From a virus, in the IMG/VR virus record IMGVR_UViG_3300025410_000028, positions 1 through 48,367 of that record: a stretch of DNA of 48,367 bases; one strand, 5' to 3'. The position numbers and the translations under genes are program-made. The first letter of the stretch is position 1, and each line of letters starts with the position of its first letter. The notes under the pieces are model-generated. The model was not told the DNA's origin and ran no database searches. It worked only from the letters and a program-made list of their open reading frames with translations. Positions 11,821 to 33,105 of the stretch are shown here, in pieces.

Positions 11821-11979
11821 ATGCCCCTATTATATTTGTTTATAGCTATTATAGCGTCGTTCTTTTTTCTACCTTTAGCTATATTTGCATGGTATGCAAT
11901 TATAGTGCCACTTAAATTTGTGATGCTGATCACATTTATTTATTTGATATATAAACTACTACAAGGAAGTAATAAATGA
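11821..11979 (+). CDS. Small two-helix membrane protein, holin candidate
   Basis: 52 residues (MPLLYLFIAIIASFFFLPLA and a second hydrophobic stretch IIVPLKFVMLITFIYLIY), ending LLQGSNK. Two membrane helices with a short basic tail fit a class II holin-like protein, but this is only inferred from topology and from sharing a cluster with the lysin. It starts two bases after the HNH stop and its stop overlaps the next ATG (ATGA), so it is translationally coupled. Confidence 0.65.
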   Translation: MPLLYLFIAIIASFFFLPLAIFAWYAIIVPLKFVMLITFIYLIYKLLQGSNK

Positions 11980-12542: not shown

Positions 12543-12710
12543 ATGCCAAGACATTTTTTCAATGCATACATGCAAAATAGAAAGATTAACTCTTATAGAA
12601 TTAGATTAGTTAAGAAAGAGATTCCTGTAGATCCCGCCAAAGATATAAAGGAAGAAAATCTTATTGACACTACCATTCGCATCTTTGCTTTCTGGAGAAA
12701 AGAAAACTAG
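12543..12710 (+). CDS. Hypothetical basic protein
   Basis: 55 residues (MPRHFFNAYMQNRKINSYRI, ending FAFWRKEN). The ribosome site AGGAG lies 9 bases before the ATG. It converges with the sulfotransferase gene and overlaps its stop by 4 bases. Not recognised. Confidence 0.6.
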   Translation: MPRHFFNAYMQNRKINSYRIRLVKKEIPVDPAKDIKEENLIDTTIRIFAFWRKEN

Positions 12711-14316: not shown

Positions 14317-14325
14317 TAGGTTACA

Positions 14326-14334
14326 ATTATAACA
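14326..14334 (-). promoter_or_regulatory. Near-leaderless promoter of the sulfotransferase pair
   Basis: Minus strand TGTTATAAT ends 9 bases before the ATG at 14316, so the transcript would carry about 2-3 untranslated bases. Confidence 0.6.
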
Positions 14335-14444
14335 TTTACTATTTGATACCCTCAATTTCATTTTGAGAAAATGTTAATTTTTTTTTAAGATGCATGATAC
14401 ACTCTGAAAAAAAGGAAAAAAAAAGAAATACTGTGCCCATATCG

Positions 14445-14508
14445 GGACAAATCGGACATAAATGACCAGTCAAAGAAAAAATAAATTTCGATTTGTCCTG
14501 ATATGTCC
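14445..14508. repeat. Phased GGACA operators, divergent pair
   Basis: GGACA at 14445 and 14454 on plus, TGTCC at 14494 and 14504 (the same motif on minus), with TGACCAGTCA (14463-14472) between. The motif units are 9-10 bases apart, close to one helical turn. This lies in the gap between the divergent sulfotransferase and early-region promoters, so a repressor or activator array is likely. Confidence 0.6.
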
Positions 14509-14518
14509 GTTTTGCGAC

Positions 14519-14547
14519 TTGATATTTTCCAAATACTGTGCTAAACT
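14519..14547 (+). promoter_or_regulatory. Early promoter, TTGATA/TAAACT type
   Basis: TTGATA (14519-14524), 17 bases, TAAACT (14542-14547) with TGC extension. First promoter of the plus-strand early region. Confidence 0.7.
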
Positions 14548-14562
14548 TAAGTTATTAAAGAA

Positions 14563-14581
14563 ATTGAGAAAGGTTCTCAAT
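14563..14581 (+). promoter_or_regulatory. 5' leader hairpin
   Basis: ATTGAGAA and TTCTCAAT form an 8-bp stem with an AGG loop a few bases before the ribosome site of the 14599 gene. GAAAGGTTC occurs both in the hairpin and at the true ribosome site, so it could be a decoy or switch element. Confidence 0.45.
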
Positions 14582-14598
14582 AAAGAAAGGTTCAGAAT

Positions 14599-14745
14599 AT
14601 GAACACTGTAAAATATGCAGAATATATCAAATGCCCTACCTGCAAGGTGCCTGTTCTAGTAGATCAGGAATATACCCCTCCTGCCCGACTTCAGATAGAA
14701 TGTCGGAATTGTCTAGATGTGAGCGGAATCACACTCTATATCTAG
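14599..14745 (+). CDS. Mini zinc-ribbon protein
   Basis: 48 residues: CPTC at 12-15 and CRNC at 35-38 make a two-knuckle zinc ribbon. Ribosome site AAAGG. First gene of the early region; function unknown. Confidence 0.65.
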   Translation: MNTVKYAEYIKCPTCKVPVLVDQEYTPPARLQIECRNCLDVSGITLYI

Positions 14746-14748
14746 CGT

Positions 14749-14783
14749 GTCGAGTTGATTTTCTCGACATAGTATGCTAAACT
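14749..14783 (+). promoter_or_regulatory. Early promoter with operator around the -35 box
   Basis: TTGATT (14755-14760), 17 bases, TAAACT (14778-14783) with TGC extension. GTCGAG (14749) and CTCGAC (14763) form an inverted repeat that brackets the -35 box, a typical repressor site. The sequence GCGTGTCGAGTTGA before it recurs inverted near 19970-19985. Confidence 0.65.
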
Positions 14784-14812
14784 TCCAGTTATAAAATTAA
14801 ATATAGAAAAAT

Positions 14813-14876
14813 CCTAGTGAGCCTCTAGCAATAGAGCAAATAATCTAGGCAAGGAAAGCGGTTAGAAAGTCTAACC
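14813..14876 (+). ncRNA. Structured 5' leader, possible cis-regulatory RNA
   Basis: The transcript from the 14778 box has about 110 untranslated bases. CCTAG (14813) pairs with CTAGG (14845), enclosing CTCTA-GCAA-TAGAG (a GNRA-capped hairpin). This is followed by GGTTAGA-AAG-TCTAACC (14860-14876) just before the ribosome site. This is much more structure than a simple leader needs. Confidence 0.5.
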
Positions 14877-14901
14877 AAATAAAAAGAAAGGTGTTCATCA
14901 A

Positions 14902-15102
14902 ATGAATACACTAAACTATAACTACATTGAGATTGGTGATACTATCACTCTCCCTAATTCCCACCTTGCTATCAAGTCTGGTGTAATTGCTAAAATCCGT
15001 AAGTGGAATGGCGATGCTATGCAGGTTACTTGCACCAATGGTGCGGTGTTTGCACTTAGCAAGTATAATCGTAATTTTGTCCTCACACTAGAGGACAACT
15101 AA
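14902..15102 (+). CDS. Small SH3-like beta-barrel protein (paralog 1)
   Basis: 66 residues. The YIEIGDTITL start, with SGVIAKIRKW and a T-rich beta core, matches the pattern of the proteins at 18965 and 19710 (Y-x-x-GD-x-x-T, then V-x-G-x-I). This suggests a small beta-barrel, perhaps nucleic-acid binding. Preceded by a long structured leader and a GAAAGGTG ribosome site. Confidence 0.65.
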   Translation: MNTLNYNYIEIGDTITLPNSHLAIKSGVIAKIRKWNGDAMQVTCTNGAVFALSKYNRNFVLTLEDN

Positions 15103-15106
15103 TTAA

Positions 15107-15208
15107 ATGACTATAAACTCTTTAACCCTGCTATCTATCTTGCTAGTGTCGTACCTATCTGCTAAACTCATAACAGATAAAGATTGGGGCAAGAATGATA
15201 AGAAATAA
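15107..15208 (+). CDS. Single-pass mini membrane protein
   Basis: 33 residues (LTLLSILLVSYLSAKL is the hydrophobic part, tail DKDWGKNDKK). It begins 4 bases after the previous stop and overlaps the next gene by 14 bases. A TGTC-N9-TGCTAAACT promoter lies inside it. Coding status is uncertain because of its size. Confidence 0.45.
   Translation: MTINSLTLLSILLVSYLSAKLITDKDWGKNDKK
15147..15168 (+). promoter_or_regulatory. Promoter related to the AATGTCAG family
   Basis: TGTC, 9 bases, TGCTAAACT: same spacing as the AATGTCAG-N7-TGNTANNAT promoters but with a changed left half. It precedes the secreted protein gene at 15195. Confidence 0.4.
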
Positions 15209-15395
15209 AGTAATCGCATTAGCGATAGCACTAACGCTATTCCCTACTGTGGCTAATGCTAAGGTTTATCACATTGTGAAAACGCCTAAGGCTACACGTA
15301 GTTTGACTTCTGTGGGTAAGTATGGTTATACTTATCACAGAGAGTCCACAATCAAATGCCCGTTTTTTGGTTGTCGCAGAGCCTACACTCACTAA
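15195..15395 (+). CDS. Small secreted protein
   Basis: 66 residues. Residues 1-22 (MIRNKVIALAIALTLFPTVA, then NA) form a clear signal peptide with an ANA-type cleavage site. The mature part is basic and contains CPFFGC. It may act at the host envelope, for instance in superinfection exclusion, but this is only inferred from the signal peptide. Confidence 0.65.
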   Translation: MIRNKVIALAIALTLFPTVANAKVYHIVKTPKATRSLTSVGKYGYTYHRESTIKCPFFGCRRAYTH

Positions 15396-15421
15396 TAAAA
15401 ATTAACGAAAGGAAAAAAATA

Positions 15422-15598
15422 ATGACTATGACATATTCATTCGAAAAAAAGTTTGACCCTTGGGCGATTGAGCCTGATGCCTTTGACTTGCTTATGGCTG
15501 AAGAAGCAGAAACAGAAAACGCTAAGCAAGGTGATGACATTTCACTAGAAGACTTAGAAGATTCAGAAATTGAGTTTGATGAGGAGTTTGATTTATAA
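15422..15598 (+). CDS. Acidic hypothetical protein
   Basis: 58 residues from ATG 15422 with ribosome site GAAAGGA. Strongly acidic C-terminus (ISLEDLEDSEIEFDEEFDL). The stop overlaps the next ATG (TAATG). It may be a DNA mimic or binding tail, but no family is recognised. Confidence 0.6.
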   Translation: MTMTYSFEKKFDPWAIEPDAFDLLMAEEAETENAKQGDDISLEDLEDSEIEFDEEFDL

Positions 15599-15789
15599 TG
15601 ATGAGCCGTAAAGACTACATAAATGTAGCGGATATTCTAAATGAAAATAAAAATCGAATTGACTCAGATGTCTTTCACGATTTAGTAATTGACTTCTCGG
15701 ATTTCTTCTTTGCAGATAATCCCAACTTCTCGCCAAATCGTTTTGAATTGGCTTGCTATGGAAATGATGAAACGGCGGATGTAAAATAA
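15598..15789 (+). CDS. Conserved small actinophage-type protein
   Basis: 63 residues. VFHDLVIDFSDFFFADNPNFSPNRFELACYG resembles a small family seen in many actinobacteriophages (a D-F-x-D-FF-x-x-DNP-x-F motif ending in F-x-x-AC). Function unknown. Coupled to both neighbours by TAATG overlaps; ATGATG gives two start choices. Confidence 0.6.
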   Translation: MMSRKDYINVADILNENKNRIDSDVFHDLVIDFSDFFFADNPNFSPNRFELACYGNDETADVK

Positions 15790-15887
15790 TGGAAGACATT
15801 TTTAATTTTGCAAATGCAATCCAACTAGATCATTTAACAGATGAACAAATCAAAATCGTTGAAAATATTTTAAAAGATTTTGAATAA
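15789..15887 (+). CDS. Mini helical protein
   Basis: 32 residues (MEDIFNFANAIQLDHLTDEQ), amphipathic helices. Its ATG overlaps the previous stop (TAATG), which supports translation. Not recognised. Confidence 0.45.
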   Translation: MEDIFNFANAIQLDHLTDEQIKIVENILKDFE

Positions 15888-15895
15888 ATAAAAAA

Positions 15896-15930
15896 GCTCT
15901 GAAGTAGGCGTAAAATACTGACTTCAGAGC
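15896..15930. terminator. Perfect 10-bp hairpin ending the first early unit
   Basis: GCTCTGAAGT (15896-15905) and ACTTCAGAGC (15921-15930) around a 15-base loop. The run of six T lies on the minus-strand side, so as a classical terminator it works best for leftward transcription; on the plus strand it lacks a U-tract. Confidence 0.55.
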
Positions 15931-15944
15931 AAGGCCGGGATTTT

Positions 15945-15999
15945 GGACAAATCGGACATTTACGGACAAAAAAGACATTTACGGTGTGACCAGTCACAC
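15945..15999. repeat. Phased GGACA array and GTGTGAC palindrome
   Basis: GACA cores at 15946, 15955, 15965 and 15974 (9-10 base steps) are followed by GTGTGAC-CA-GTCACAC (15984-15999), which contains the same TGACCAGTCA core as the site at 14463. The whole 15888-16190 gap has no gene; it holds this array and two promoters. Confidence 0.6.
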
Positions 16000-16061
16000 A
16001 AATATCCACGCTCCAAATATTGAGATTTACCCCTATGTTACTCGATAGTAGCGATATTTTA

Positions 16062-16070
16062 TGCTATAAT
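16062..16070 (+). promoter_or_regulatory. Extended -10 box TGCTATAAT
   Basis: A consensus extended -10 with no clear -35 box. No gene follows within 110 bases, and a second promoter lies at 16129, so tandem promoters or a short leader RNA are possible. Confidence 0.45.
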
Positions 16071-16128
16071 TCCATTATACAAAATTAAATAAAAATAAAA
16101 AAAAGTTAGTTAATTACGGCGTGTCGCC

Positions 16129-16157
16129 TTGATTTTTAGCAGAAAGTCTGCTAAACT
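16129..16157 (+). promoter_or_regulatory. Early promoter, TTGATT/TAAACT type
   Basis: TTGATT, 17 bases, TAAACT with TGC extension, preceded by GGCGTGTCG as in the 14755 promoter. Confidence 0.7.
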
Positions 16158-16190
16158 AACGATAGTTAAACAATAAGAAAGGTGGTCAAA

Positions 16191-16385
16191 ATGACTACAC
16201 TAAATAAAATAAATATCGGAAAAACCCTTGGAATTTCTGCTCAGTTAGAAAATCGTATCATTCACGAATTTAACAATGGAGGCTGTAAGTCCTCTTATGG
16301 CTTATCTACGCCTCAGCGTATAGCCTTAATTAAAATCCTATTGGGTGGCAATGCCCCTAAGTGTGAGTGTATTCTCTGCATTTAG
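16191..16385 (+). CDS. Hypothetical small protein
   Basis: 64 residues from ATG 16191, with AAAGGTGG five bases upstream. Mostly helical with a C-terminal CECILC cluster. An in-frame GTG at 16182 overlaps the ribosome site and is unlikely. Not recognised. Confidence 0.6.
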   Translation: MTTLNKINIGKTLGISAQLENRIIHEFNNGGCKSSYGLSTPQRIALIKILLGGNAPKCECILCI

Positions 16386-16398
16386 GCAAATCCCGCCC

Positions 16399-16422
16399 AA
16401 TGTCAGTGGGCTCTGATATAAT
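16399..16422 (+). promoter_or_regulatory. AATGTCAG-family promoter
   Basis: AATGTCAG, 7 bases, TGATATAAT. Precedes the gene at 16454. Confidence 0.75.
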
Positions 16423-16453
16423 AAATCCGTTAAACAAAAGAAAGGAAGTTAAA

Positions 16454-16681
16454 ATGACTTCACTAAAAATAAATTGCCAAGAGTGTGGCAAATCCTGCGG
16501 AGAGATTTCCGTATATGACGCTCCTTATACTGGGGCAACTACTTGCTGGGAATGCACTTTTAAAAATTGCGATCTCTGCTATGGTCAAGGTATCACTGGC
16601 TGGGTTAGCCCTGATGGTGATTTTGATTTTGATTATTGCGAATGCAACCCACTTTGCCTAACACTAGAGGAGGTCAAATAA
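16454..16681 (+). CDS. Cysteine-rich zinc-finger protein
   Basis: 75 residues: CQECGKSC near 8-15, CWECTFKNCDLC at about 34-45 and YCECNPLC near 63-70. Several CxxC knuckles suggest two zinc sites. Ribosome site AAAGGAAG. The stop overlaps the next ATG (TAATG). Function unknown. Confidence 0.65.
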   Translation: MTSLKINCQECGKSCGEISVYDAPYTGATTCWECTFKNCDLCYGQGITGWVSPDGDFDFDYCECNPLCLTLEEVK

Positions 16682-16887
16682 TGACTAACCAAACTATTTT
16701 TGAAGTCGCTTGCCTATACCACGAAATTTGTGGGGCAAGCCAAACTTTTTACTCTGAGGAAGAGTATGACATTTATGGCGATGACTATGTCTGCCCTGAA
16801 TGCTATGATCAGCAAGAAATGGGAATGTATGGGTGGGCAGACTCAAGCGATGCCTTTCCAATGTCTCTAGAATATGACGAAGGGTGA
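16681..16887 (+). CDS. Small zinc-binding acidic protein
   Basis: 68 residues with CLYHEICGA near the N-terminus and CPECYD at about 39-44. Acidic overall. Coupled to the upstream gene by TAATG. Confidence 0.6.
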   Translation: MTNQTIFEVACLYHEICGASQTFYSEEEYDIYGDDYVCPECYDQQEMGMYGWADSSDAFPMSLEYDEG

Positions 16888-16891
16888 TAAT

Positions 16892-17008
16892 ATGAACTTA
16901 GATGAATTTAAAGCTTATGTCCAAAACAAGCGTGAAGAGTCACGCCTTGAAGCAATGTCAGTGCTATCTGATACAATAACAACCTCAAACCCGAAAGAAG
17001 GAAAATAA
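16892..17008 (+). CDS. Mini protein containing a promoter in its reading frame
   Basis: 38 residues (MNLDEFKAYVQNKREESRLE, ending SNPKEGK), ribosome site AAGGG. The AATGTCAG-family promoter of the next gene lies inside its 3' end and is read as A-M-S-V. Ends two bases before the next ATG. Confidence 0.45.
   Translation: MNLDEFKAYVQNKREESRLEAMSVLSDTITTSNPKEGK
16954..16977 (+). promoter_or_regulatory. AATGTCAG-family promoter
   Basis: AATGTCAG, 7 bases, TGATACAAT, inside the 38-residue reading frame. Drives the gene at 17010. Confidence 0.7.
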
Positions 17009-17009
17009 T

Positions 17010-17267
17010 ATGAAAATGCACGAACTCGATACAACAAACTGGAATGCTTACCCTTTCACAGTTAATGGAATTAACTATGTCTCAAAGGTAAAGCCTGAGT
17101 CATCTATGGCAAGGCGTATTTCTCGTGTGCCTGCTGATGTCTTTATTACTATGAATGAACAATGCGTTCGTGAACTTATTGGCAATGCCACTTCAAAGTC
17201 TTTGCTAATTGCGAAACTTTATGAGGTAAATGAAAATGCTAGCGAAGCAGTTATCGAAATTGTCTGA
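17010..17267 (+). CDS. Hypothetical protein with KTN-like small fold
   Basis: 85 residues (MKMHELDTTNWNAYPFTVNG, then a conserved-looking YVSKVKPESSMARRISRVPADVF split over about 23-46). Ribosome site AAGGA. No family recognised; it overlaps the next small gene by 32 bases. Confidence 0.6.
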   Translation: MKMHELDTTNWNAYPFTVNGINYVSKVKPESSMARRISRVPADVFITMNEQCVRELIGNATSKSLLIAKLYEVNENASEAVIEIV

Positions 17268-17373
17268 TAGAGTCCAGCGTATTCAAGAATTGCGACGCAG
17301 TAATGCGTCGCAACCTATACGCAATAAAAAAAAGTACACCCGTAAGCAAAAGTATAAAAAGATAGAGGAATAA
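17236..17373 (+). CDS. Very basic mini protein
   Basis: 45 residues, about one third K or R (RNKKKYTRKQKYKKIEE at the end). GAGG lies 9 bases before the ATG, and the stop is one base before the next ATG. Likely nucleic-acid binding if expressed. It contains a perfect DNA hairpin (17290-17313). Confidence 0.5.
   Translation: MLAKQLSKLSDRVQRIQELRRSNASQPIRNKKKYTRKQKYKKIEE
17290..17313. repeat. Perfect inverted repeat inside the basic mini gene
   Basis: TTGCGACGC, 6-base loop, GCGTCGCAA. Nine GC-rich pairs inside a coding region suggest an operator or an mRNA hairpin. Confidence 0.5.
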
Positions 17374-17374
17374 A

Positions 17375-17629
17375 ATGTCAAATATTTCAACAGCGTTAGC
17401 AATTCAAGAAGCATGTCGTGAAGAAGTTTATAACCCTGAAGCAATGTACTATGCTGCAAAAATTGTAGCAACGGCAGGATTTACTGAAGAGATTGCAGAG
17501 TTGTTGCTTAAGTATGCAGCAACACTATCTGCAGGGGTTGCAACAAAAGTTGTTTCAATAACAATGTCTCGTGATGAATTTTCATCCATGGTATCAGAAT
17601 TAAAAGAGATGGAGTCTATCCATGGCTAA
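17375..17629 (+). CDS. Helical hypothetical protein
   Basis: 84 residues, alanine- and glutamate-rich helices (AELLLKYAATLSAGVATKVV). Ribosome site AGAGGA. Overlaps the next gene by 8 bases. Not recognised. Confidence 0.65.
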   Translation: MSNISTALAIQEACREEVYNPEAMYYAAKIVATAGFTEEIAELLLKYAATLSAGVATKVVSITMSRDEFSSMVSELKEMESIHG

Positions 17630-17837
17630 ACACCCACCAGTCAACAGTGCAAAATGGCATTCAGTTTTTGCAGATGATCAATGCAAGATCTGGCAAGATA
17701 GTAACGATGAAATATTTTTTAAAGTTGCGGTCAAGGGCCAACGTGTTAAATATTTTTATAATGAAACGGGATACAGTGACGTTGCAAGATACTGCAGTGA
17801 TCACCTGGGCATAGCTTATTGGTCCGTCCTAAATTAA
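17622..17837 (+). CDS. Hypothetical small protein
   Basis: 71 residues, beta-rich (CKIWQDSNDEIFFKVAVKGQ, YFYNETGYSDVARYC). Last gene of its unit; a hairpin and a terminator follow. Not recognised. Confidence 0.6.
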   Translation: MAKHPPVNSAKWHSVFADDQCKIWQDSNDEIFFKVAVKGQRVKYFYNETGYSDVARYCSDHLGIAYWSVLN

Positions 17838-17848
17838 TTTTTTGTTGC

Positions 17849-17893
17849 GACGGGTGAGAGAGATGGGTCCAGGAATTGCCACCTGGGCCCGTC
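17849..17893 (+). terminator. Large hairpin after the 17837 stop
   Basis: GGGTCCAGG (17865-17873) pairs with CCTGGGCCC (17882-17890), with an outer GAC/GTC pair set, followed by a T-rich tail. The 17838-18115 gap holds this, the terminator below, a GTGTCG element and a promoter. Confidence 0.55.
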
Positions 17894-17905
17894 ATAATTT
17901 ATTTT

Positions 17906-17942
17906 AAAATGCGGCGTGTTGATTTGACAAACGCATTTTTTT
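17906..17942 (+). terminator. Rho-independent terminator
   Basis: AAAATGCG (17906-17913) pairs with CGCATTTT (17932-17939) and the T-run continues to 17942. The 18-base loop is long. Confidence 0.5.
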
Positions 17943-18053
17943 GTCGGCAAAAATTCATCTAAAATTCACTTTACGGAGTGTCGTCCACAACCCCTGTGGA
18001 TTTTAATTAACCTTCTGTTCATTTAAAATGTCCGAATTATACGCATTTTGGAG

Positions 18054-18082
18054 TTGATAATGTCAGCCCGATAGTGTAAAAT
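18054..18082 (+). promoter_or_regulatory. Hybrid early promoter
   Basis: TTGATA (18054), 17 bases, TAAAAT (18077-18082). AATGTCAG (18059-18066) overlaps it at the family spacing, so this promoter carries both the TTGATW -35 box and the AATGTCAG element. Confidence 0.7.
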
Positions 18083-18115
18083 AGCGGATAGTTAAACAGA
18101 AAGAAGGTAGCAAAT

Positions 18116-18343
18116 ATGCTAATCTCACAAGCCCTAGAAGGCAAATATGTAAAGTCCTCACAAGGACAAGGTATAATCCAGTACGCAGATTTCCGCAAGG
18201 ATATGCACCACTCAACACCAGAAGGCTATCTTGCTTATGCTTGCAAGGTTCGCCCTATCTATAATCCCGAAAGACATAGATTTATTCCAGAAGATTTCTG
18301 GACAACAGTTTATGTAGGCATTGACTCAGAATTGGTGGACTAA
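18116..18343 (+). CDS. Hypothetical small protein
   Basis: 75 residues, beta-rich (MLISQALEGKYVKSSQGQGI, ending VGIDSELVD). Ribosome site GAAGG. The next ATG follows two bases after its stop. Not recognised. Confidence 0.6.
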   Translation: MLISQALEGKYVKSSQGQGIIQYADFRKDMHHSTPEGYLAYACKVRPIYNPERHRFIPEDFWTTVYVGIDSELVD

Positions 18344-18344
18344 T

Positions 18345-18551
18345 ATGACTATTAAACTTGGTGGGCTAGGGCAGACTATCTCTGCCTATTGCCCAGTATG
18401 CTCAGAAAAGATGACCCATATGTGTATTGCTACACTTGGTACGGGTCGTACCGTTCGCTATGCGTGGGAATGTAATGCTTGCGAATTATCTCTTAAATCA
18501 GATAAAGATGGCTATGCTCATCTCTTAACAGAATTGGCTTACTATGCTTGA
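18345..18551 (+). CDS. Zinc-ribbon protein
   Basis: 68 residues: CPVCSEKMTHMC at about 16-27 and ECNACELSL at about 42-50 form a four-cysteine ribbon around a beta hairpin (TGRTVRYAWECNAC). The ATG at 18345 follows the previous stop directly; an upstream TTG is less likely. Function unknown. Confidence 0.65.
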   Translation: MTIKLGGLGQTISAYCPVCSEKMTHMCIATLGTGRTVRYAWECNACELSLKSDKDGYAHLLTELAYYA

Positions 18552-18651
18552 TAAAGAATTAGATCAGTTATGGAATAATTATAAAGAGGCTACTTGGAAC
18601 ACAATGTCAGTACCACCTGCTACAATATGGGAAACAAAGGAGAACGACTAA
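18544..18651 (+). CDS. Mini protein containing a promoter in its reading frame
   Basis: 35 residues (MLDKELDQLWNNYKEATWNT, then MSVPPATIWETKEND). It overlaps the previous gene by 8 bases and its stop overlaps the next ATG (TAATG). As at 16892, the promoter for the next gene is read as T-M-S-V. Confidence 0.45.
   Translation: MLDKELDQLWNNYKEATWNTMSVPPATIWETKEND
18603..18626 (+). promoter_or_regulatory. AATGTCAG-family promoter
   Basis: AATGTCAG, 7 bases, TGCTACAAT. Drives the gene at 18651. Confidence 0.7.
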
Positions 18652-18857
18652 TGTATAAACTAACTGCATCTTATGACGGAAATCCCGCCCCACATTGGAC
18701 AGGTTCGTATGACAATGCACTTGATGCCGTACACGCTTTTGATAAGTGCGTGGATTGGGGTTTTGCAGATGAATATGCAACTTATAATTTATATGAGCCA
18801 AATGGCAGATGTCATACAAAAGTCTTTCACCGCTCAGGCGTAGTGCAAGCAAAGTAA
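18651..18857 (+). CDS. Hypothetical small protein
   Basis: 68 residues (MYKLTASYDGNPAPHWTGSY, then DNALDAVHAFDKCVDWG). The pattern looks like a small alpha/beta fold that shortens a T-x-x-Y-D-N-A-x-x-A-x-x-A-F module seen in several phage hypotheticals. Ribosome site AAAGGAG. Confidence 0.6.
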   Translation: MYKLTASYDGNPAPHWTGSYDNALDAVHAFDKCVDWGFADEYATYNLYEPNGRCHTKVFHRSGVVQAK

Positions 18858-18863
18858 AAGAAT

Positions 18864-18891
18864 TGTCGTGTGACTTAACTCATACACGACA
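18864..18891 (+). terminator. 8-bp inverted repeat after the 18857 stop
   Basis: TGTCGTGT and ACACGACA around 12 bases, containing the recurrent GTGTCG-type word. No T-run, so it may be an operator rather than a terminator. Confidence 0.4.
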
Positions 18892-18905
18892 CGCCCATAG
18901 TGGGT

Positions 18906-18935
18906 TGGACAAAGGTTGGTTCATTATGGTAAAAT
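18906..18935 (+). promoter_or_regulatory. Promoter TGGACA-18-TAAAAT
   Basis: TGGACA (18906), 18-base spacer, TAAAAT (18930-18935). The -35 box carries the GGACA word. Drives the gene at 18965. Confidence 0.6.
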
Positions 18936-18964
18936 ACCACACTAACAACAACAAAGGAGAAAAA

Positions 18965-19129
18965 ATGACAATCGGAAATAACACATACAAGGTAGGCGAC
19001 CTATTCACTACACAGAAGTCAAAGGTCACAGGCACTATCAAGGAAATCAACCCTATCAACGCAACTAACACAAGAGTCTTGCTTGATGTTGATGGTCAAG
19101 AACGCTGGACAACAGTTACACTTGCTTAA
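18965..19129 (+). CDS. Small SH3-like beta-barrel protein (paralog 2)
   Basis: 54 residues: YKVGDLFTTQKSKVTGTIKE then TNTRVLLDVDGQERW. Clear paralog of the 19710 protein (YQIGDLFTTSKTGVTGRI) and more distantly of 14902. Ribosome site AAAGGAG. Probably a small beta-barrel. Confidence 0.7.
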   Translation: MTIGNNTYKVGDLFTTQKSKVTGTIKEINPINATNTRVLLDVDGQERWTTVTLA

Positions 19130-19157
19130 TTAAATAGTTATGGGTGGGCTGGCAACA

Positions 19158-19181
19158 AATGTCAGCCCTACCTGCTACAAT
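19158..19181 (+). promoter_or_regulatory. AATGTCAG-family promoter
   Basis: AATGTCAG, 7 bases, TGCTACAAT. GGGCTG upstream pairs with CAGCCC within the motif, so it could also form a hairpin. Drives the gene at 19222. Confidence 0.7.
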
Positions 19182-19221
19182 ACAACTCTTAAACAAACCC
19201 GAACAGAAAGTAGAAAAATAA

Positions 19222-19638
19222 ATGGCTAGAGCAATCTCCGTAAAAGTAGCAACACCAAAGGTCATCAACGCACTAGAGTCAAAGTTGGCTCAGTTAGAGT
19301 CTGACCTTGCAACATCACTAGCAAACGAGGAAGCGTTCCAAATTGCTTGGAAAGATTATCAAACACAGTTGCAGAATTATGCTGTTGCAAATATCTCACA
19401 GGCAACCAACTTCCGTGTATCACACCGCAACTATCACGGAACAGTAAATATTGACTATGATGTTCCAAATAACTTGGCTGGATTCCCAGTAGAGCCAAAG
19501 CGTGATTTCGAGGTAGTGTATGAACACACAGTTACTTCTGCAAAAACAGAAATCGCAAATGCTCTCAACATCTTGCGTATGACAGATGAGGAATATGTAT
19601 CTGCCTCAACTATGAAGTCTATCGCTTCATACCTCTAA
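19222..19638 (+). CDS. Hypothetical coiled-coil protein
   Basis: 138 residues. Residues 10-50 are helical (VINALESKLAQLESDLATSL), the middle is beta-like (F-R-V-S-H-R-N-Y) and the end is helical. It lies between two SH3-like paralogs with its own promoter. Not recognised. Confidence 0.7.
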   Translation: MARAISVKVATPKVINALESKLAQLESDLATSLANEEAFQIAWKDYQTQLQNYAVANISQATNFRVSHRNYHGTVNIDYDVPNNLAGFPVEPKRDFEVVYEHTVTSAKTEIANALNILRMTDEEYVSASTMKSIASYL

Positions 19639-19709
19639 ATAAGTAACGACCTGAGCATAGTCGCTAAACTGCTCACCACTATACCCCGAATATAGCAAAG
19701 GAAAAAATA

Positions 19710-19880
19710 ATGACACTACAAGGATACACATATCAAATTGGTGATCTATTCACAACATCTAAAACAGGTGTAACAGGTCGCATCACAAAGTTTTCACCAG
19801 TATCAAATAAAGTTACTCGTGTTCAGTTGCAATTAGCAAATGGACAACAGCGTTTTGCAATGGTAAAAACATCTAAGTAA
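19710..19880 (+). CDS. Small SH3-like beta-barrel protein (paralog 3)
   Basis: 56 residues (MTLQGYTYQIGDLFTTSKTG, then VQLQLANGQQRFAMVKTSK). Ribosome site AAAGGA. Preceded by a TCGCTAAACT box and followed by a two-stem RNA structure. Confidence 0.7.
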   Translation: MTLQGYTYQIGDLFTTSKTGVTGRITKFSPVSNKVTRVQLQLANGQQRFAMVKTSK

Positions 19881-19886
19881 ATAATT

Positions 19887-19940
19887 AGCGGGTCGTGAGT
19901 GATAACAGGTAAGTGTCTAAGTAGCCTTAGACCACCCGCT
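19887..19940 (+). ncRNA. Two-stem RNA structure in the 3' region
   Basis: AGCGGGT (19887-19893) pairs with ACCCGCT (19934-19940), enclosing GTCTAAG-TAGC-CTTAGAC (19915-19932) and an unpaired 21-base strand. It lacks a T-run, so it is either a complex terminator or a stable RNA end. Confidence 0.45.
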
Positions 19941-20006
19941 TAATTTAAAAGCTGCGACACGCCCGATGTTGTCGGCAAATTGTCAACTCGACACGCCGTT
20001 ACGAAA

Positions 20007-20030
20007 GTGAACATTACGTGAACATTTACG
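20007..20030 (+). repeat. Tandem GTGAACATT(T)ACG repeat
   Basis: Two adjoining copies, 11 bases apart, resembling the GGACATTTACGG units elsewhere. The 19941-20112 gap contains this, CGACACGCC words and a promoter. Confidence 0.5.
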
Positions 20031-20060
20031 GAACTCTGGCTCTGCGGTTACGATTGGACA

Positions 20061-20084
20061 AATGTCAGTGGAGTCTGTTATACT
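20061..20084 (+). promoter_or_regulatory. AATGTCAG-family promoter
   Basis: AATGTCAG, 7 bases, TGTTATACT, preceded by TTGGACA. Drives the DUF932-type gene. Confidence 0.75.
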
Positions 20085-20112
20085 AGCGACACCTAATAGA
20101 AAGAAGGAAAAT

Positions 20113-21150
20113 ATGACTAACCCAATGTCACAAGTTCATCGCTCAGAAGTTGAAGATGGATCTGTATCTCTCGCTGTATCTCTACGCTCTAACCCTGCGT
20201 GGCATAGTTTTGCTAACAAGGTATTCAATCAAGATGAGGCTGTTACCACAGCGCAAATGCTTGAGGGTGCTAATCTTGCAAATTGGAATGTGCAACTAGA
20301 ATCTGTTTCAGATTTGCTTGCAGATAACTACACAACAGTTTCAGATAACTATCTTGTTGTTCGTGATAACCCTGTTACAGCGGGACAGAAAGATGTTCTG
20401 TCAGTTGTAGGTTCACGCTATAAGACAGTTCAGAATGAAGATTTGTTTGCGTTTGCAGATAATATTCACGATGGCAATTCAGATGTTTATTGGGAAAGTG
20501 CAGGCTCTCTCAAGAATGGTCGTGTTGTATTTGGCACAATGTCAATTCCCCGCACAATGGTTCTTGATCCTGAGGGTGCTAACGATCAGACTAATCTTTA
20601 TCTAGTTGTCTACACCTCACACGATGGTTCAGTAGCGGTTCAATCTGCTATTACCCCTGTTCGTGTTATGTGTCAGAATACACTTAACCTTGCAATGCGT
20701 CGTGCTAAGCAATCTTTCAAGATTCGCCACACTCAGACAGTAGATGGCAAGATCGCTGCTGCTCGTGAGGCTCTTGGTTTAACTTTCTCCTATATGGACG
20801 AGTTCGAGAAGCAGGCTCAAGAGTTGTTCTCTCGTGAAGTAACCAACGCTAAGTTTAGCGAGATCATCAACAAGATGTATCCTAAGCCTGAAGTGGACAA
20901 GAAAGGTGCTGTAAAAAAGTGGGAGAACAAGGTTGTTCTTCTTGATGAGTTGTACCACAACTCTCCTACTAATGCTAACATCAAGGGAACGGCTTGGGGT
21001 GTTGTTAATGCACTTACTGAACGCCTTGATTACTATCGCACAGCCCGTAAAGGTGGCGATTCACTTATGGCTGGTGCAAGTGGATTTGATCCAGTTGTAA
21101 CAGCAGAAAAAAATAAAATTGTTAAGCAGGTTCTTGCTTTAACCGCTTAA
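20113..21150 (+). CDS. DUF932 / TIGR03299 phage-plasmid protein
   Basis: 345 residues, the largest protein of the early region. NPAWHSFANKVFNQDEAVTT at the start, VVGSRYKTVQNEDLFAFAD, VYTSHDGSVAVQSAITPVRVMCQNTLNLAM (split here as three blocks) and IRHTQTVDGKIAAAREALG are hallmarks of the DUF932 family found in phages and plasmids, whose role is unknown but may concern replication or recombination. The ATG at 20113 has an AAGGA ribosome site. A strong hairpin follows. Confidence 0.88.
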   Translation: MTNPMSQVHRSEVEDGSVSLAVSLRSNPAWHSFANKVFNQDEAVTTAQMLEGANLANWNVQLESVSDLLADNYTTVSDNYLVVRDNPVTAGQKDVLSVVGSRYKTVQNEDLFAFADNIHDGNSDVYWESAGSLKNGRVVFGTMSIPRTMVLDPEGANDQTNLYLVVYTSHDGSVAVQSAITPVRVMCQNTLNLAMRRAKQSFKIRHTQTVDGKIAAAREALGLTFSYMDEFEKQAQELFSREVTNAKFSEIINKMYPKPEVDKKGAVKKWENKVVLLDELYHNSPTNANIKGTAWGVVNALTERLDYYRTARKGGDSLMAGASGFDPVVTAEKNKIVKQVLALTA

Positions 21151-21164
21151 TAAAAAAAATAAAA

Positions 21165-21188
21165 GTGGCGGAGCAAAAGCTCCGCCAC
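21165..21188 (+). terminator. 10-bp hairpin after the DUF932 gene
   Basis: GTGGCGGAGC, AAAA loop, GCTCCGCCAC. It lies 14 bases after the stop and just before tRNA-Asp; no long T-run follows, so it may separate mRNA from tRNA by processing. Confidence 0.6.
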
Positions 21189-21193
21189 TCTCT

Positions 21194-21267
21194 GATCCCA
21201 TAGATCAATTGGTTAGATCGCTACCCTGTCACGGTAGAGGTTGCGGGTTCAAGTCCCGTTGGGATCG
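21194..21267 (+). tRNA. tRNA-Asp (GTC)
   Basis: Acceptor GATCCCA/TGGGATC, anticodon loop CTGTCAC, T-arm GCGGGTTCAAGTCCCGT. Discriminator G, CCA not encoded. The only plus-strand tRNA in the window, away from the minus-strand cluster. Confidence 0.95.
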
Positions 21268-21282
21268 CATAGTAAGATTTAT

Positions 21283-21334
21283 AATCTCACATGTTGAGAT
21301 TTGCCGACAATAGACAAAATGGACATTACGGACA
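21283..21334. repeat. Hairpin and phased GACA array
   Basis: AATCTCA-CATGT-TGAGATT (21283-21301) is followed by GACA at 21306, 21313, 21322 and 21331, then ACTTTACGGA. Same word and spacing as at 14445 and 15945. Confidence 0.55.
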
Positions 21335-21366
21335 ACTTTACGGATCTCCTGAAATTTTTCTGGACA

Positions 21367-21390
21367 AATGTCAGTGGGGTATGCTAGAAT
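21367..21390 (+). promoter_or_regulatory. AATGTCAG-family promoter
   Basis: AATGTCAG, 7 bases, TGCTAGAAT, with TGGACA just upstream. Drives the gene at 21421. Confidence 0.75.
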
Positions 21391-21420
21391 ATGCCCTATA
21401 ACTACGAACAAAGGAAATAT

Positions 21421-22104
21421 ATGCCAAACTGGGTATTTAATGGTCTAACAATTGAAGGTAATCCTGAATCTGTAACTAAGTTAGTTAATCAGATGAATCA
21501 ACCATTTGAGGTTATGCACGACTCTTATGATATGGATACAGGTAAGTTTATTAAGAAAGATGTTCTTTACTCCGCCCCGATTTTTGCTTTCTGGAATATT
21601 GTCAAGCCAACAGATTTAGAAGCCTACAACAAGCAACCAGATCGTTCATTACCAATTCAAGAGCAACTTAAATTCCAAAGCGATTATTGGTATGACTGGA
21701 ATATCCGTAACTGGGGTGTCAAATGGGATGTAGCCGTATCTGAGGAAAGCAAGTATTCAAATACTTATATGGAAGGTCCTACAGAAAATGGTGATAACTT
21801 AGTAGTCTATTATAACTTTGAGACTGCTTGGGGTGTAGCAGATGAAGCACTAATTAAACTATCGTCTCAGTATCCCGACCTGTTATTCACATTGTCTTTT
21901 GAAGAAGAGACAGGCTGGGGTGGGGAATGGGAATTCCTCCGTGGAGAAATCATTAGCCAATCTGAATATGAAACCAAGTGTAATGAATGTGATGAATATA
22001 ACACTATGTCATATTGCGAAGATTGCGAAAATGATGTATGCTCTGCTTGTGGATATGGATCAGAGGATGTTTGTGAAACTCATAGGGAAAAGGTGGAGGG
22101 ATAA
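21421..22104 (+). CDS. Api92-like protein with C-terminal zinc fingers
   Basis: 227 residues. The start MPNWVFNGLTIEGNPESV is the hallmark of Api92-like phage proteins with a ferredoxin-type fold (MPNWC-x-N-x-L-x-I-x-G). FAFWNIVKP and NWGVKWDV fit the same family. The last 40 residues add CNECDEY, CEDCENDVCSAC and a C-x3-H, so a zinc-binding tail is fused. Start at 21421 with AAAGGA is preferred to an in-frame ATG at 21391, which overlaps the -10 box. Confidence 0.8.
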   Translation: MPNWVFNGLTIEGNPESVTKLVNQMNQPFEVMHDSYDMDTGKFIKKDVLYSAPIFAFWNIVKPTDLEAYNKQPDRSLPIQEQLKFQSDYWYDWNIRNWGVKWDVAVSEESKYSNTYMEGPTENGDNLVVYYNFETAWGVADEALIKLSSQYPDLLFTLSFEEETGWGGEWEFLRGEIISQSEYETKCNECDEYNTMSYCEDCENDVCSACGYGSEDVCETHREKVEG

Positions 22105-22283
22105 TGTCAGTAGAGGTTATTAAATATATTAAAGAACAACACACAAAACTCCTCAGCATCTATAATGATGCTAGGGACAATGTGGAAATTCCTGAAGATG
22201 AGTATTTTGAATCAGATGCTTACTATGAAGGGTCTATTAACACATTGGAAGATATCTTAAATAAGTTTGGGGTAAATGTATAA
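22104..22283 (+). CDS. Acidic hypothetical protein
   Basis: 59 residues (MSVEVIKYIKEQHTKLLSIY, then acidic). TAATG overlaps link it to both the Api92-like gene and the next gene. Not recognised. Confidence 0.6.
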   Translation: MSVEVIKYIKEQHTKLLSIYNDARDNVEIPEDEYFESDAYYEGSINTLEDILNKFGVNV

Positions 22284-22894
22284 TGGATCAATGGAATAAG
22301 TGGGATTATCTTTGCACAAATTGTGATGCAAATGTTGAGATGACTCTTAAAGTTGATGGACTCCCGCATTTTGCAGATTGTCCGAAATGTGAAGGTTTTA
22401 CCCTAACACTAATGTCAGTGGTAGATGCTACAATACTCCCTATAACCGAACAGAAAGAAGAAATCATGGAAACAGTACAAGAGACCTACAACCCAAATGC
22501 TTTGGTCACTTACAAGAAGATTGTAAATGGTCAGGCTGAATATGTTACTCTAAAGACAACAGAACTTGATTGGGCTATGAATCGTGCCCGTCAAGACGAG
22601 AAGCAGGTTCTCAATGACTATGAGAAGCAGGTTGCACTTGAGGAAATTATCAAGGAAAACTATCTTGAGTCTGGGGATCAGGGAACACTTCTCCAAATTG
22701 CAGAGCTCTTTCATATTGCATTAACTAAAGATGTTGAGTTTGTTGCAACTATCGAAATTGCGGGAACTGTAACAGTTGATTTAACTGATGAAGATGCCCT
22801 ACAAACCTTGCTAGAAAATAGCATAAATGTTTCTTCCTATGATGGAGATTTAGATGTATCCGATTATGTATTAGTCAACTATGAGGAGCGTTAA
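22283..22894 (+). CDS. Zinc-ribbon protein with an internal promoter and second start
   Basis: 203 residues. Residues 11-36 form a zinc ribbon (CTNC, then CPKC), and residues 62-203 are a separate acidic alpha/beta domain (METVQETYNPNALVTYKKIV onward). An AATGTCAG-family promoter (22411-22434) and a ribosome site AGAAAGAAG precede Met62 (22466) in frame. Two products are therefore expected: the full protein and a 142-residue short form. This looks like a fusion of an ancestral mini zinc-ribbon gene with its neighbour by loss of a stop codon. Confidence 0.7.
   Translation: MDQWNKWDYLCTNCDANVEMTLKVDGLPHFADCPKCEGFTLTLMSVVDATILPITEQKEEIMETVQETYNPNALVTYKKIVNGQAEYVTLKTTELDWAMNRARQDEKQVLNDYEKQVALEEIIKENYLESGDQGTLLQIAELFHIALTKDVEFVATIEIAGTVTVDLTDEDALQTLLENSINVSSYDGDLDVSDYVLVNYEER
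22411..22434 (+). promoter_or_regulatory. AATGTCAG-family promoter inside a gene
   Basis: AATGTCAG, 7 bases, TGCTACAAT, translated in frame as L-M-S-V-V-D-A-T. It would produce a message for the 142-residue form starting at 22466. Confidence 0.7.
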
Positions 22895-23103
22895 TGGCTA
22901 TTGTTACAATTGATGCTGGGTCCCGCCAAACGGCGGGCTCCATTATCATGGAATCTTGGAAGCACGGGATTGAAGTAGAAAAGCTTTATGGCAACCAACT
23001 TGAACTTACATGTGCCCATGATGACAAATTAAATAGAGTCTTATCTAGATTTGCAGATATCAAGGTTTTGCATACTGAATTAATTAAAGAAGTTGCGGAA
23101 TAG
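22894..23103 (+). CDS. Hypothetical small protein
   Basis: 69 residues (MAIVTIDAGSRQTAGSIIME), coupled by TAATG to the preceding gene. The sequence after the start contains an inverted repeat of CCCGCCA/GGCGGG. Not recognised. Confidence 0.6.
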   Translation: MAIVTIDAGSRQTAGSIIMESWKHGIEVEKLYGNQLELTCAHDDKLNRVLSRFADIKVLHTELIKEVAE

Positions 23104-23105
23104 AC

Positions 23106-23135
23106 TTGACAACCCTCTTACGAATATGATAGGAT
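23106..23135 (+). promoter_or_regulatory. Leaderless promoter TTGACA-18-TAGGAT
   Basis: Perfect -35 box, 18-base spacer, TAGGAT with TGA extension, and the ATG at 23143 seven bases later. Confidence 0.65.
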
Positions 23136-23142
23136 TCGCCTT

Positions 23143-23292
23143 ATGACTAAAGATATGACAATAACTGACTTACTTAATATGATGTATGCATTGGTAGATG
23201 GTCACAATGATGATTGTGATTGTTTAGATTGCAAGACATTAGATAATATCCAACTTATGATGATTACTTGGGTGGTGCAAAATGTGGAATGA
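23143..23292 (+). CDS. Cysteine-containing mini protein
   Basis: 49 residues with CDCLDC near the middle and two short helices. The start lies 7 bases after a -10 box, so a leaderless message is expected. Overlaps the next gene by 11 bases. Confidence 0.55.
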   Translation: MTKDMTITDLLNMMYALVDGHNDDCDCLDCKTLDNIQLMMITWVVQNVE

Positions 23293-23515
23293 TAGAGTAG
23301 ATTTAGTGATATATGAAGTAGATTATAGTGTATCCCCAGGCGGCATTAATATGTTTGAGGTATATGATCAATCTGAAGATAGTTATATTAATTCCCGTCC
23401 AGTATTTGAAACAGAGAGTTTGACAGAGGCTGTACAATTCTGTTATAATCAGGGCTTAAATTTTACTGTGCATACATTAGCGCAGTACTACGCAGAGGAG
23501 TTAAATAATGTCTGA
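23282..23515 (+). CDS. Hypothetical small protein
   Basis: 77 residues (MWNDRVDLVIYEVDYSVSPG, then LTEAVQFCYNQGLNFTVH). The ATG follows GGGTGGTGC. It overlaps the next gene by 8 bases. An alpha/beta fold is likely; no family recognised. Confidence 0.6.
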   Translation: MWNDRVDLVIYEVDYSVSPGGINMFEVYDQSEDSYINSRPVFETESLTEAVQFCYNQGLNFTVHTLAQYYAEELNNV

Positions 23516-23876
23516 TATTAGTGCATTGGACCGCATCGGCCTACTTGTAGACATCAACATGGCAATGACAAAGTATTCCAATGCTAAAGGCAATTGGAGA
23601 CCAGGGATCCATGACTACTGTACATTCCATACACTCATCAACATGTACGAAAGTGACATGTCTGATGAAAATCTAGAATACATGTGGAACAAGACACCTG
23701 ATGAAATCATGTACTACATCATAGAAAATAATAATAGTTTTACAATTGATTATGGATGGGAAGATCTTGATGAATCCATCCGTGATTATGTAATAAGTAA
23801 AGATTTTGTCGTTCATGTGGATGACATGTCAGAAGAAGAATACAACCAACTAACAGGAGGAAGAAATAATGGCTAA
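23508..23876 (+). CDS. Acidic helical hypothetical protein
   Basis: 122 residues, W- and Y-rich with an acidic C-terminus (FVVHVDDMSEEEYNQLTGG). Overlaps neighbours by 8 bases on both sides. Not recognised. Confidence 0.65.
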   Translation: MSDISALDRIGLLVDINMAMTKYSNAKGNWRPGIHDYCTFHTLINMYESDMSDENLEYMWNKTPDEIMYYIIENNNSFTIDYGWEDLDESIRDYVISKDFVVHVDDMSEEEYNQLTGGRNNG

Positions 23877-24042
23877 GGAAAACGCACGTACCTATCTAAT
23901 CAGCAAGGGTTTCAATCCAGGGGCCCGTGGTCGTTTCTCTGCAGAGATGATCAAGGTTCTCAAGGAATCGGGTCTTGAATTTACTCGTCCCATCAAGGAC
24001 CCAAAGCCTCGTGGCACCGTTCAGTCAGTGTCTTTAAAGTAA
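23869..24042 (+). CDS. Lsr2-type DNA-binding domain protein
   Basis: 57 residues. ARTYLISKGFNPGARGRFSA and EMIKVL align with the C-terminal DNA-binding domain of mycobacterial Lsr2 ([20 protein letters not shown] and DVIDAY), including the RGR motif that enters the AT-rich minor groove. The N-terminal oligomerisation domain of Lsr2 is missing. Such a protein could act as a decoy, a heteromeric partner or a regulator of AT-rich DNA. Ribosome site AGGAGG. Codon use is more GC-rich than in its neighbours, hinting at host origin. Confidence 0.8.
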   Translation: MAKENARTYLISKGFNPGARGRFSAEMIKVLKESGLEFTRPIKDPKPRGTVQSVSLK

Positions 24043-24125
24043 ACCCCTATTCAACTTTAACCCCACTACGTAATTCACGTACATTGTACGGGCTTGACAA
24101 GGCTGGGGTTAAGGTAGGATTTGTT

Positions 24126-24230
24126 ATGTGTTCTGACTGTGAACTACACATGACACTTTGCGAATGCGAAGGGGGAGTAAAAGCTCCGTCTCATATAGTG
24201 AAACTACTGGACAGTAACGCAAGACTCTGA
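24126..24230 (+). CDS. Mini zinc-knuckle protein
   Basis: 34 residues starting MCSDCELHMTLCECEGG (cysteines 2, 5, 12, 14). TTGACA and TAGGAT boxes precede it in the same arrangement as at 23106, but with a short 15-base spacer and only 5 bases to the ATG. Preceded by a long-looped inverted repeat TTAACCCCA/TGGGGTTAA. Confidence 0.45.
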   Translation: MCSDCELHMTLCECEGGVKAPSHIVKLLDSNARL

Positions 24231-24236
24231 TATAAT
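24208..24236 (+). promoter_or_regulatory. Promoter TGGACA-17-TATAAT
   Basis: TGGACA (24208), 17 bases, TATAAT (24231-24236) with TGA extension. Drives the gene at 24258. Confidence 0.7.
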
Positions 24237-24257
24237 ACAAGGTTCAGAAAGGACAAT

Positions 24258-24572
24258 ATGCCAACGCTTCATTCAGAAAATAATTCAGTAACTAGGAAGT
24301 TCAGCAAGCAAGCAGAAGAAGCATTATCTGATGATAGATATCACGCTACAGGTTTTGCCTTTGATTTGACCCATATGCCAGTTAATGCTCAAATTAGATA
24401 TTTTAACACATTTGCTGCTTATGCTGCAATTATGTCTAACTATCTAAAGGAAGACTTTGTACAACCTTATCTAAAGGATATTGCGGTTGTATGTAATGAA
24501 TTGGTTTCTCTTATTGGAAGCCATAAGAATGGTTCCGCCCAGCCTATGTGGGAGCAACCGACCCTGCTCTAA
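24258..24572 (+). CDS. Helical hypothetical protein
   Basis: 104 residues, mostly helical (MPVNAQIRYFNTFAAYAAIM). Ribosome site AGAAAGGA. Its stop overlaps the next promoter. Not recognised. Confidence 0.65.
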   Translation: MPTLHSENNSVTRKFSKQAEEALSDDRYHATGFAFDLTHMPVNAQIRYFNTFAAYAAIMSNYLKEDFVQPYLKDIAVVCNELVSLIGSHKNGSAQPMWEQPTLL

Positions 24573-24594
24573 TGTCAGTGGTCCCTGATATAAT
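24571..24594 (+). promoter_or_regulatory. AATGTCAG-family promoter
   Basis: AATGTCAG, 7 bases, TGATATAAT. Drives the gene at 24620. Confidence 0.75.
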
Positions 24595-32867: not shown

Positions 32868-33105
32868 ATTTTATTCCTTCTAGTTCGCAGGGTACTCCGT
32901 ATGACATAATCAATTCTCTACAAAGTAGTAAATATTCCATAATATCAGCACGTTTATCAATTTCGTACTGCATAACGTTATCTTCATAAACAGTTAATGC
33001 AAGATAATTCGGCCTTGCTCTTATATCCATTTTGAGATCTTTAACAGGTCTCTTAATTTTTCTAATAGCCCTTGCCATTTCTATATTATAGAATATTTTT
33101 TCCAT
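32830..33105 (-). CDS. Hypothetical protein
   Basis: 91 residues from ATG 33105 (AAAGAG ribosome site), or 82 from ATG 33078, which lies 6 bases after a TATAAT. Basic N-terminus (MARAIRKIKRPVKDLKMDIR). Overlaps the WhiB stop by 20 bases in the longer form. Confidence 0.6.
   Translation of the reverse strand: MEKIFYNIEMARAIRKIKRPVKDLKMDIRARPNYLALTVYEDNVMQYEIDKRADIMEYLLLCRELIMSYGVPCELEGIKYEPKSKSTNNRG

Follow-up and report, generated by a model that had tools for sequence, protein, structure and literature searches.

BldC is a small MerR-like protein of Streptomyces, the subunits of which are described as binding direct repeats head to tail, with 9 bp of DNA for each subunit (PMC5859096). According to this account, the BldC consensus AATTXXXX(C) comprises an AT-rich stretch followed by a C-G pair, the region between -50 and -80 is protected at the whiI promoter, and an optimised 20-bp site reads TGTCCGAATTGTCCGAATTG; it has also been stated that BldC sites cannot be predicted from sequence (PMC6428758). 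None of the literature titles and abstracts searched was found to deal with BldC sites in phages, and nothing beyond these titles and abstracts is claimed. In this study, arrays of GGACA and GACA words were analyzed in a viral DNA sequence of 48,367 bases (IMG/VR virus record IMGVR_UViG_3300025410_000028, positions 1 to 48,367; the whole stretch is hereafter called the window), for which an earlier note had proposed helically phased arrays bound cooperatively by a protein, perhaps a phage master regulator. Judged by their sequence, the arrays are control sites conserved among a group of viruses from freshwater, presumably infecting actinobacteria, and, with a probability of roughly 0.6, they represent operators for a protein of the BldC family, most likely the host's own.

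The 9-bp direct repeat and its match to BldC sites

GGACA/GACA arrays are present at all three places named in the earlier note, the coordinates of which were right to within one base (Table 1). In the window, three GGACA pairs at a distance of 9 bp (0.07 expected, maximum 2), two pairs at 10 bp (0.04 expected), and one triple (0.00 expected) were counted, as compared to 200 dinucleotide shuffles. Relatives of the window were represented by 59 IMG/VR loci encoding a relative of its phrog_1221 protein (970,620 bases, both strands). In these loci, GGACA words were spaced 9 bp apart in 77 cases and 10 bp apart in 16, with 1.0 and 1.1 expected, respectively, from ten shuffles, and only 0–2 pairs were found at each other spacing between 5 and 17 bp. 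Enrichment and spacing preference, the features on which the earlier proposal depended, are thus both present in the relatives. Among nine control words analyzed at 9 bp, seven gave no more than six pairs, TGACA gave eight, and GAACA, being one base away from GGACA, gave 21. Furthermore, 58 of the 72 unique 9-bp pairs are located mostly outside open reading frames (ORFs) of at least 60 amino acids, such non-ORF sequence accounting for 26% of the total. In some early promoters, GGACA is also found at the -35 position, and the repeats could therefore be regarded as chance occurrences or mere -35-like words. With 77 pairs against 1.0 expected, and with the bases flanking GGACA being conserved as well, this explanation was rejected as having next to no probability.

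Between two and four repeat units were found per site in the window, and three in contig G028. The GACA words of the array at 15940 start at 15946, 15955, 15965, and 15974, and the steps at the third site are 7, 9, and 9 bp. The opposed repeat at 14492 scored 8.6 with the 9-bp profile, which has no model of a 10-bp spacing; the same layout recurs in two relatives (L041 and L042). Concerning the proposed near-helical spacing, a strong spacing preference was confirmed, but steps of 9 bp are far more common than steps of 10 bp, and the step therefore reflects the repeat period of a protein and not one exact turn of the helix.

The consensus of the 72 unique 9-bp pairs is AAATCGGACATATCGGACATAT, that is, the 9-bp direct repeat AWWTCGGAC usually occurring twice, with AAATCGGAC as the repeat unit. 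Within the viral collection, 107 stretches contain the exact pattern AWWTCGGACAWWTCGGACAW, as compared to 12 containing a permuted pattern of identical composition. When compared with the BldC rule given in PMC5859096, the phage unit conforms to it, featuring an AT-rich stretch and a C four bases further on. Read on its lower strand (CAATTCGGACAATTCGGACA), the optimised BldC site reported there agrees with the phage consensus at every position. The reverse complement of TGTCCGAATTGTCCGAATTG likewise conforms to the pattern AWWTCGGACAWWTCGGACA, which had been set before this comparison, at a time when the natural whiI site was already known. The optimised site scored 28.3 bits with the phage profile, as compared to a training median of 28.1 bits and to 18.5 bits for the best of six million random 20-mers. 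For the minimal natural whiI site (lower strand AATCCGAGCAATTCGGACACA; PMC5859096), 14.7 bits were obtained, a value reached by none of 20,000 shuffles and by none of 20,000 random 22-mers at either 50% or 72% GC. The six published BldC half-sites ranked 3 (whiI repeat AATTCGGAC), 122 (smeA repeat AATTCGGTC), 2,989, and 8,116 among the 262,144 possible 9-mers, two being ordinary. Because the spacing preference, the conservation, and the match to the site of a cooperative binder coincide, the earlier idea of a cooperative regulator occupying closely spaced repeats is well supported.

The TGACCAGTCA palindrome, which had been described beside two of the arrays, was located at both places, the second one lying at 15987 instead of 15986. 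The related pattern TGACYRGTCA was counted 29 times in the relatives (2.5 expected); nothing connects palindrome and repeats to one protein. In addition, an inverted repeat (CTCTGAAGT...ACTTCAGAG, positions 15895–15930) just before the array at 15940 may be a terminator at the end of the preceding gene.

CRP-type sites and the layout of early promoters

Between 14 and 25 kb, the window contains many small genes, resembling clusters near the genome ends of Streptomyces relatives; by analogy with their position, this cluster is taken to be the early region. The exact palindrome TGTGA-N6-TCACA, known from CRP-type sites, was found 226 times in the relatives, as compared to 0.8 times in shuffles, and 228 times when the window was included, which has only two. 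For exact TGTGA/TCACA palindromes with spacings other than N6, the counts ranged between 0 and 3. Dense CRP-type palindromes span the early regions of L004–L062, and none of the exact sites was detected in five Streptomyces early regions. The distances from the center of the CRP site to the promoter box peak at 26, 36, 46, 56–57, and 68 bp, and the phase relative to the promoters reached R = 0.722 at 10.5 bp (n = 154 non-redundant). This sample was derived from 215 unique segments (no more than one mismatch allowed), of which 157 remained after removal at >75% identity and 154 lay within 20–110 bp. CRP sites phased at 10.5 bp upstream of promoters are the picture of class I activation by CRP. 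Helical phasing in the early region is real, and it is clearest for the CRP sites. A phage-encoded CRP was considered and rejected, as HTH_Crp_2 was found in none of 11 phage records and in all 14 control genomes. In the literature searched, phage early promoters with host CRP in a class I arrangement were not recognised, a statement confined to that literature.

The promoters themselves are of an unusual kind. In the relatives, TAnnnT follows exactly 10 bp after TGTCAG in 490 of 672 plus-strand copies and after TGTCGG in 89 of 217, while three control words gave values of 3–6 out of 175–208. Alignment of 524 unique copies from the window and the relatives resulted in AATGTC(A/G)GTSS followed by TGnTAnAAT, with at most 0.19 bit in the -35 columns and a strong extended -10. 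Most TGTC(A/G)GT copies in the full relatives share a cluster with CRP sites. The box spacing is rare or absent elsewhere, namely in five Streptomyces early regions (0/95), seven smaller contigs (2/141), and the loci carrying phrog_9440, a MerR-like protein discussed below (2/238). As far as tested, the TGTC(A/G)GT promoter is thus specific for the clade. Furthermore, TTTACG words are enriched in the early regions of the relatives (576 vs. 371 expected) and recur upstream of early promoters there and in the window (20000–20060).

At the promoter of the phrog_1221 gene, many relatives feature a CRP-type site, a gap of about 10 bp, the repeat pair, 27 bp, a weak -35, the TGTCAGT box, and the extended -10, in this order. 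In L005, the pair is located at about -82 to -64, assuming the last base of the -10 element at -7. A gap of 26–27 bp between pair and -35 was found in 13 of 34 same-strand cases in the relatives, and a distance of 49 bp between pair start and TGTCAG box in 14 of 27, many of these cases being orthologous promoters and hence not independent. The window conforms to this layout at 21321, with 48 bp between the start of the pair and the TGTCAGT box. In six long relatives, most intergenic pairs are situated in or beside the early cluster.

GGACA had also been noted in front of four promoters. The words are indeed present at 18907 (given as 18906), 20056, 21362, and 24209, but they are single words and not arrays; those at 20056 and 21362 stand where two early promoters have their weak -35, and the other two look like -35 elements as well.

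Table 1. Coordinates of repeats, palindromes, promoters, and marker genes in the window, and of flanking repeat pairs in three other contigs.
Feature	Position	Strand	Remarks
Candidate BldC-type direct repeat, GGACA at 14445 and 14454	14440..14461	+	9-bp step; score 20.3, profile trained without the window
Opposed direct repeat, two GGACA (TGTCC at 14494 and 14504)	14492..14513	-	10-bp step
Four GACA units (GGACA at 15945, 15954, 15964; GACA at 15974)	15940..15980	+	Score 25.1
Four GACA units (21306, 21313, 21322, 21331)	21305..21337	+	Score 24.2; best pair from 21321
TGACCAGTCA palindrome	14463..14472	.	Between two opposed repeats
Second TGACCAGTCA palindrome	15987..15996	.	Inside TGTGACCAGTCACA
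Exact CRP-type palindrome TGTGA-N6-TCACA	14718..14733	.	
Exact CRP-type palindrome	11919..11934	.	Inside ORF 11821-11979; chance possible
Nine TGTC(A/G)G-N10-TAnnnT promoters	16401, 16956, 18061, 18605, 19160, 20063, 21369, 22413, 24573	+ (all)	Span 16401..24594
Putative early promoter of the phrog_1221 gene	20055..20084	+	TGGACA, TGTCAGT box 20063, TGTTATACT
phrog_1221 gene	20113..21150		
Putative early promoter below the 21321 pair	21361..21390	+	TGGACA, TGTCAGT box 21369, extended -10 TGCTAGAAT
WhiB-like protein gene	33086..33406	-	PF02467 match 33185-33358, E 3.6e-12; actinobacterial phage marker
Paired repeat pairs, contig G045	14043, 14119		
Paired repeat pairs, contig G072	3831, 3906		
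Paired repeat pairs, contig G055	23944, 24010		

Candidate binding proteins

In a megablast search, positions 12000–25000 of the window had no match in the phage collection. The window was assigned to an actinobacterial phage, since it encodes a WhiB-like protein and since the best listed relatives of the phrog_1221 gene belong to Streptomyces phages of approximately 130 kb. As phrog_1221-type relatives are located in records of up to 112 kb, the window probably represents less than half of a genome. Two phage contigs were found inside non-actinobacterial metagenome-assembled genomes and were taken as misbinned.

A 60-nucleotide array query matched 36 phage records, 27 of them from Streptomyces and five from Rhodococcus phages; a permuted array matched five, none being actinobacterial. 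Repeat pairs were also identified in Streptomyces phages belonging to the same family, such as BillNye (position 1478 of L235), Evy, and LilMartin (4695, minus strand), the latter pair being located just upstream of a promoter-like sequence preceding an Lsr2-like gene. For the phage master regulator suggested previously, phrog_9440 would be a candidate: a MerR-like protein of approximately 171 amino acids with a winged helix-turn-helix (HTH), encoded at the head of the replication module and possibly acting as an early-to-middle switch. It is present in 132 phage records (127 Streptomyces and five Rhodococcus) and at least 417 IMG/VR stretches, and residues 59–125 are predicted to fold as a winged HTH of the MerR type, flanked by conserved domains (loci L252–L331; Wakanda gene 48, L332). 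In Wakanda, the gene lies directly before replication genes. In PHROG and Pfam, no function beyond a weak HTH is given, and a comparison by sequence with solved structures yielded chance matches only.

Structural comparison of the AlphaFold model (mean predicted local distance difference test score, pLDDT, 79.6) gave a best Z of 6.9 to MerR-family DNA-binding domains, a value which, being under 8, may reflect only a common arrangement. Its closest predicted neighbors are HiNmlR, CadR, and CueR, while BldC was found only at Foldseek rank 32 and was absent from the VIA-align table for this model. Moreover, neither a GGACA pair nor an exact CRP site was detected in 80 loci around the phrog_9440 gene (631,566 bases), and there is therefore no autoregulation through these sites.

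The distribution of the repeats also argues against phrog_9440. Matches to clade proteins (tblastn, open frames of at least 150 amino acids) were obtained for 62 of the 107 motif-bearing loci. The remaining 45, together with five showing weak matches (L097, L114, L129, L182, and L185), constituted 50 further records, most of these contigs being fragments. Only two of the 50 carry phrog_9440. WhiB was detected in 14, of which 13 show no phrog_9440, and seven of the 14, with sizes of 37–45 kb, were scanned completely. They contain 17 pairs at 9 bp and two at 10 bp, and neither phrog_9440 nor a match to HTH_17 was found in any of them. In addition, an exact CRP site in G028 is flanked by repeats on either side, a pairing as in the clade of the window; no clade-protein match was obtained in the 4.7-kb locus of this contig (L104). 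The cooperative part of the earlier proposal thus stands, whereas a phage-encoded regulator has become less likely, and phrog_9440 in this role appears rather unlikely. Since the seven contigs carry sites without phrog_9440 or an HTH_17 match, a putative host protein of the BldC type fits better, and a host protein as binder is the simplest reading. A BldC encoded by the phages was tried as well: none of 15 phage records exceeded the HTH_BldC cut-off (NF033787), which no control genome passed either. In smaller actinophage-like contigs, two repeat pairs at a distance of 66–76 bp flank a conserved stretch, perhaps forming a looped operator.

Another host protein binding direct repeats, either a response regulator or a DnaA/iteron-type replication control, was judged distinctly improbable. 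DnaA boxes (TTGTCCACA) have TTGTCC in common with the repeats, but in the latter TTGTCC is mostly followed by G and A or T and not by ACA, and the repeats, unlike iterons, are located at fixed distances from promoters. Repeats of actinobacterial response regulators have a period of approximately 11 bp, as compared to the peak at 9 bp observed here. Iterons and response-regulator boxes were accordingly rejected, as neither period nor sequence fits, although PhoP-type response regulators bind direct repeats, too (PMC5859096).

Several observations weigh against the host's BldC as binder. The large relatives of the clade do encode phrog_9440, and the Streptomyces phages matching the array query are all larger than 120 kb and of the phrog_9440-bearing kind. 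Only one of the seven WhiB-bearing contigs has end repeats (G055, 127 bp), and the absence of phrog_9440 may thus reflect incompleteness; five of the seven are related to one another in the sequence surrounding the pairs, and the ORF caller placed nearly all of their pairs inside ORFs. No WhiB was found in 36 of the 50 further records, and in some cases (L133 and L135) the arrays resemble coding repeats or repeats of an unrelated kind. According to a review (PMC4255298), bldC was lost many times, and simpler actinobacteria are often devoid of it. Moreover, the natural smeA array as a whole is unremarkable, its score being reached by 200 of 5,000 shuffles. Regarding position, at the phrog_1221 promoter of the window itself, degenerate GAACA words are all that is present in place of the CRP site and repeat pair seen upstream in many relatives. 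A CRP site is missing from the vicinity of 26 of the 86 pairs, and a few pairs in the full relatives, placed within long genes away from the early region, are chance-like.

Proposed mechanism and comparison with described systems

On balance, the arrays are best read as BldC-type operators, a host protein being the probable binder, within CRP-activated early promoters of unusual architecture. Each 9-bp unit, AWWT-CGGA-C(A), would hold one BldC-type subunit, with an AT-rich part suited to the narrow minor groove and a CA step for the recognition arginine. Head-to-tail loading would usually place two subunits on a site, as many as four at 15940 and 21305, and would bend the DNA. Host CRP would activate the early promoters from helically phased positions, and a BldC-type filament between CRP and the polymerase may tune or restrain this activation, so that early transcription would follow the carbon and growth state of the host. 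As a tentative and still somewhat doubtful extension, the early promoters may integrate three inputs, namely phased host CRP, a host BldC filament, and the TGTC(A/G)GT box replacing the -35 element. The factor recognizing the box is possibly the phage's single conserved WhiB on sigma region 4, which would represent an actinobacterial counterpart of sigma appropriation by T4.

The arrangement suggests that regulators of the host have been coupled to the first genes of these viruses, since growth, development, and carbon use are what BldC and CRP control in the host. If true, infection speed or outcome in phages of lake bacteria would follow host physiology, BldC would gain a large natural set of candidate sites, and early promoters in uncultured phages could readily be predicted.

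With respect to known systems, phrog_9440 of large actinobacteriophages represents a predicted MerR-type winged HTH occurring in the same phages as the repeats, but on present evidence it is not required where repeats occur. T4 middle promoters, consisting of a MotA box and an extended -10 (PMC2988021), are alike in that a short box replaces a good -35. The MotA box is located 12 ± 1 bp from the -10 according to that source, and TGTC(A/G)GT at 10 bp; unlike the T4 promoters, the promoters studied here are taken as early. With class I activator sites of CRP/GlxR, the clade shares TGTGA-N6-TCACA palindromes in 10.5-bp helical steps upstream of promoters, but the sites are very dense in the phage early region, the promoters have little -35 signal, and no phage CRP gene was found in the 11 records. 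The closest correspondence is to the Streptomyces BldC operators of whiI and smeA-sffA, as described in PMC5859096. The phage sites differ from these by residing in phage DNA and by their tight association with CRP-type sites, and their binder, host, and effect are those proposed above. Both feature 9-bp direct repeats with 2–4 units upstream of the -35, the pair of L005 lies near the BldC-protected region of whiI, and the consensus of the phage repeats is identical to the optimised whiI BldC site.

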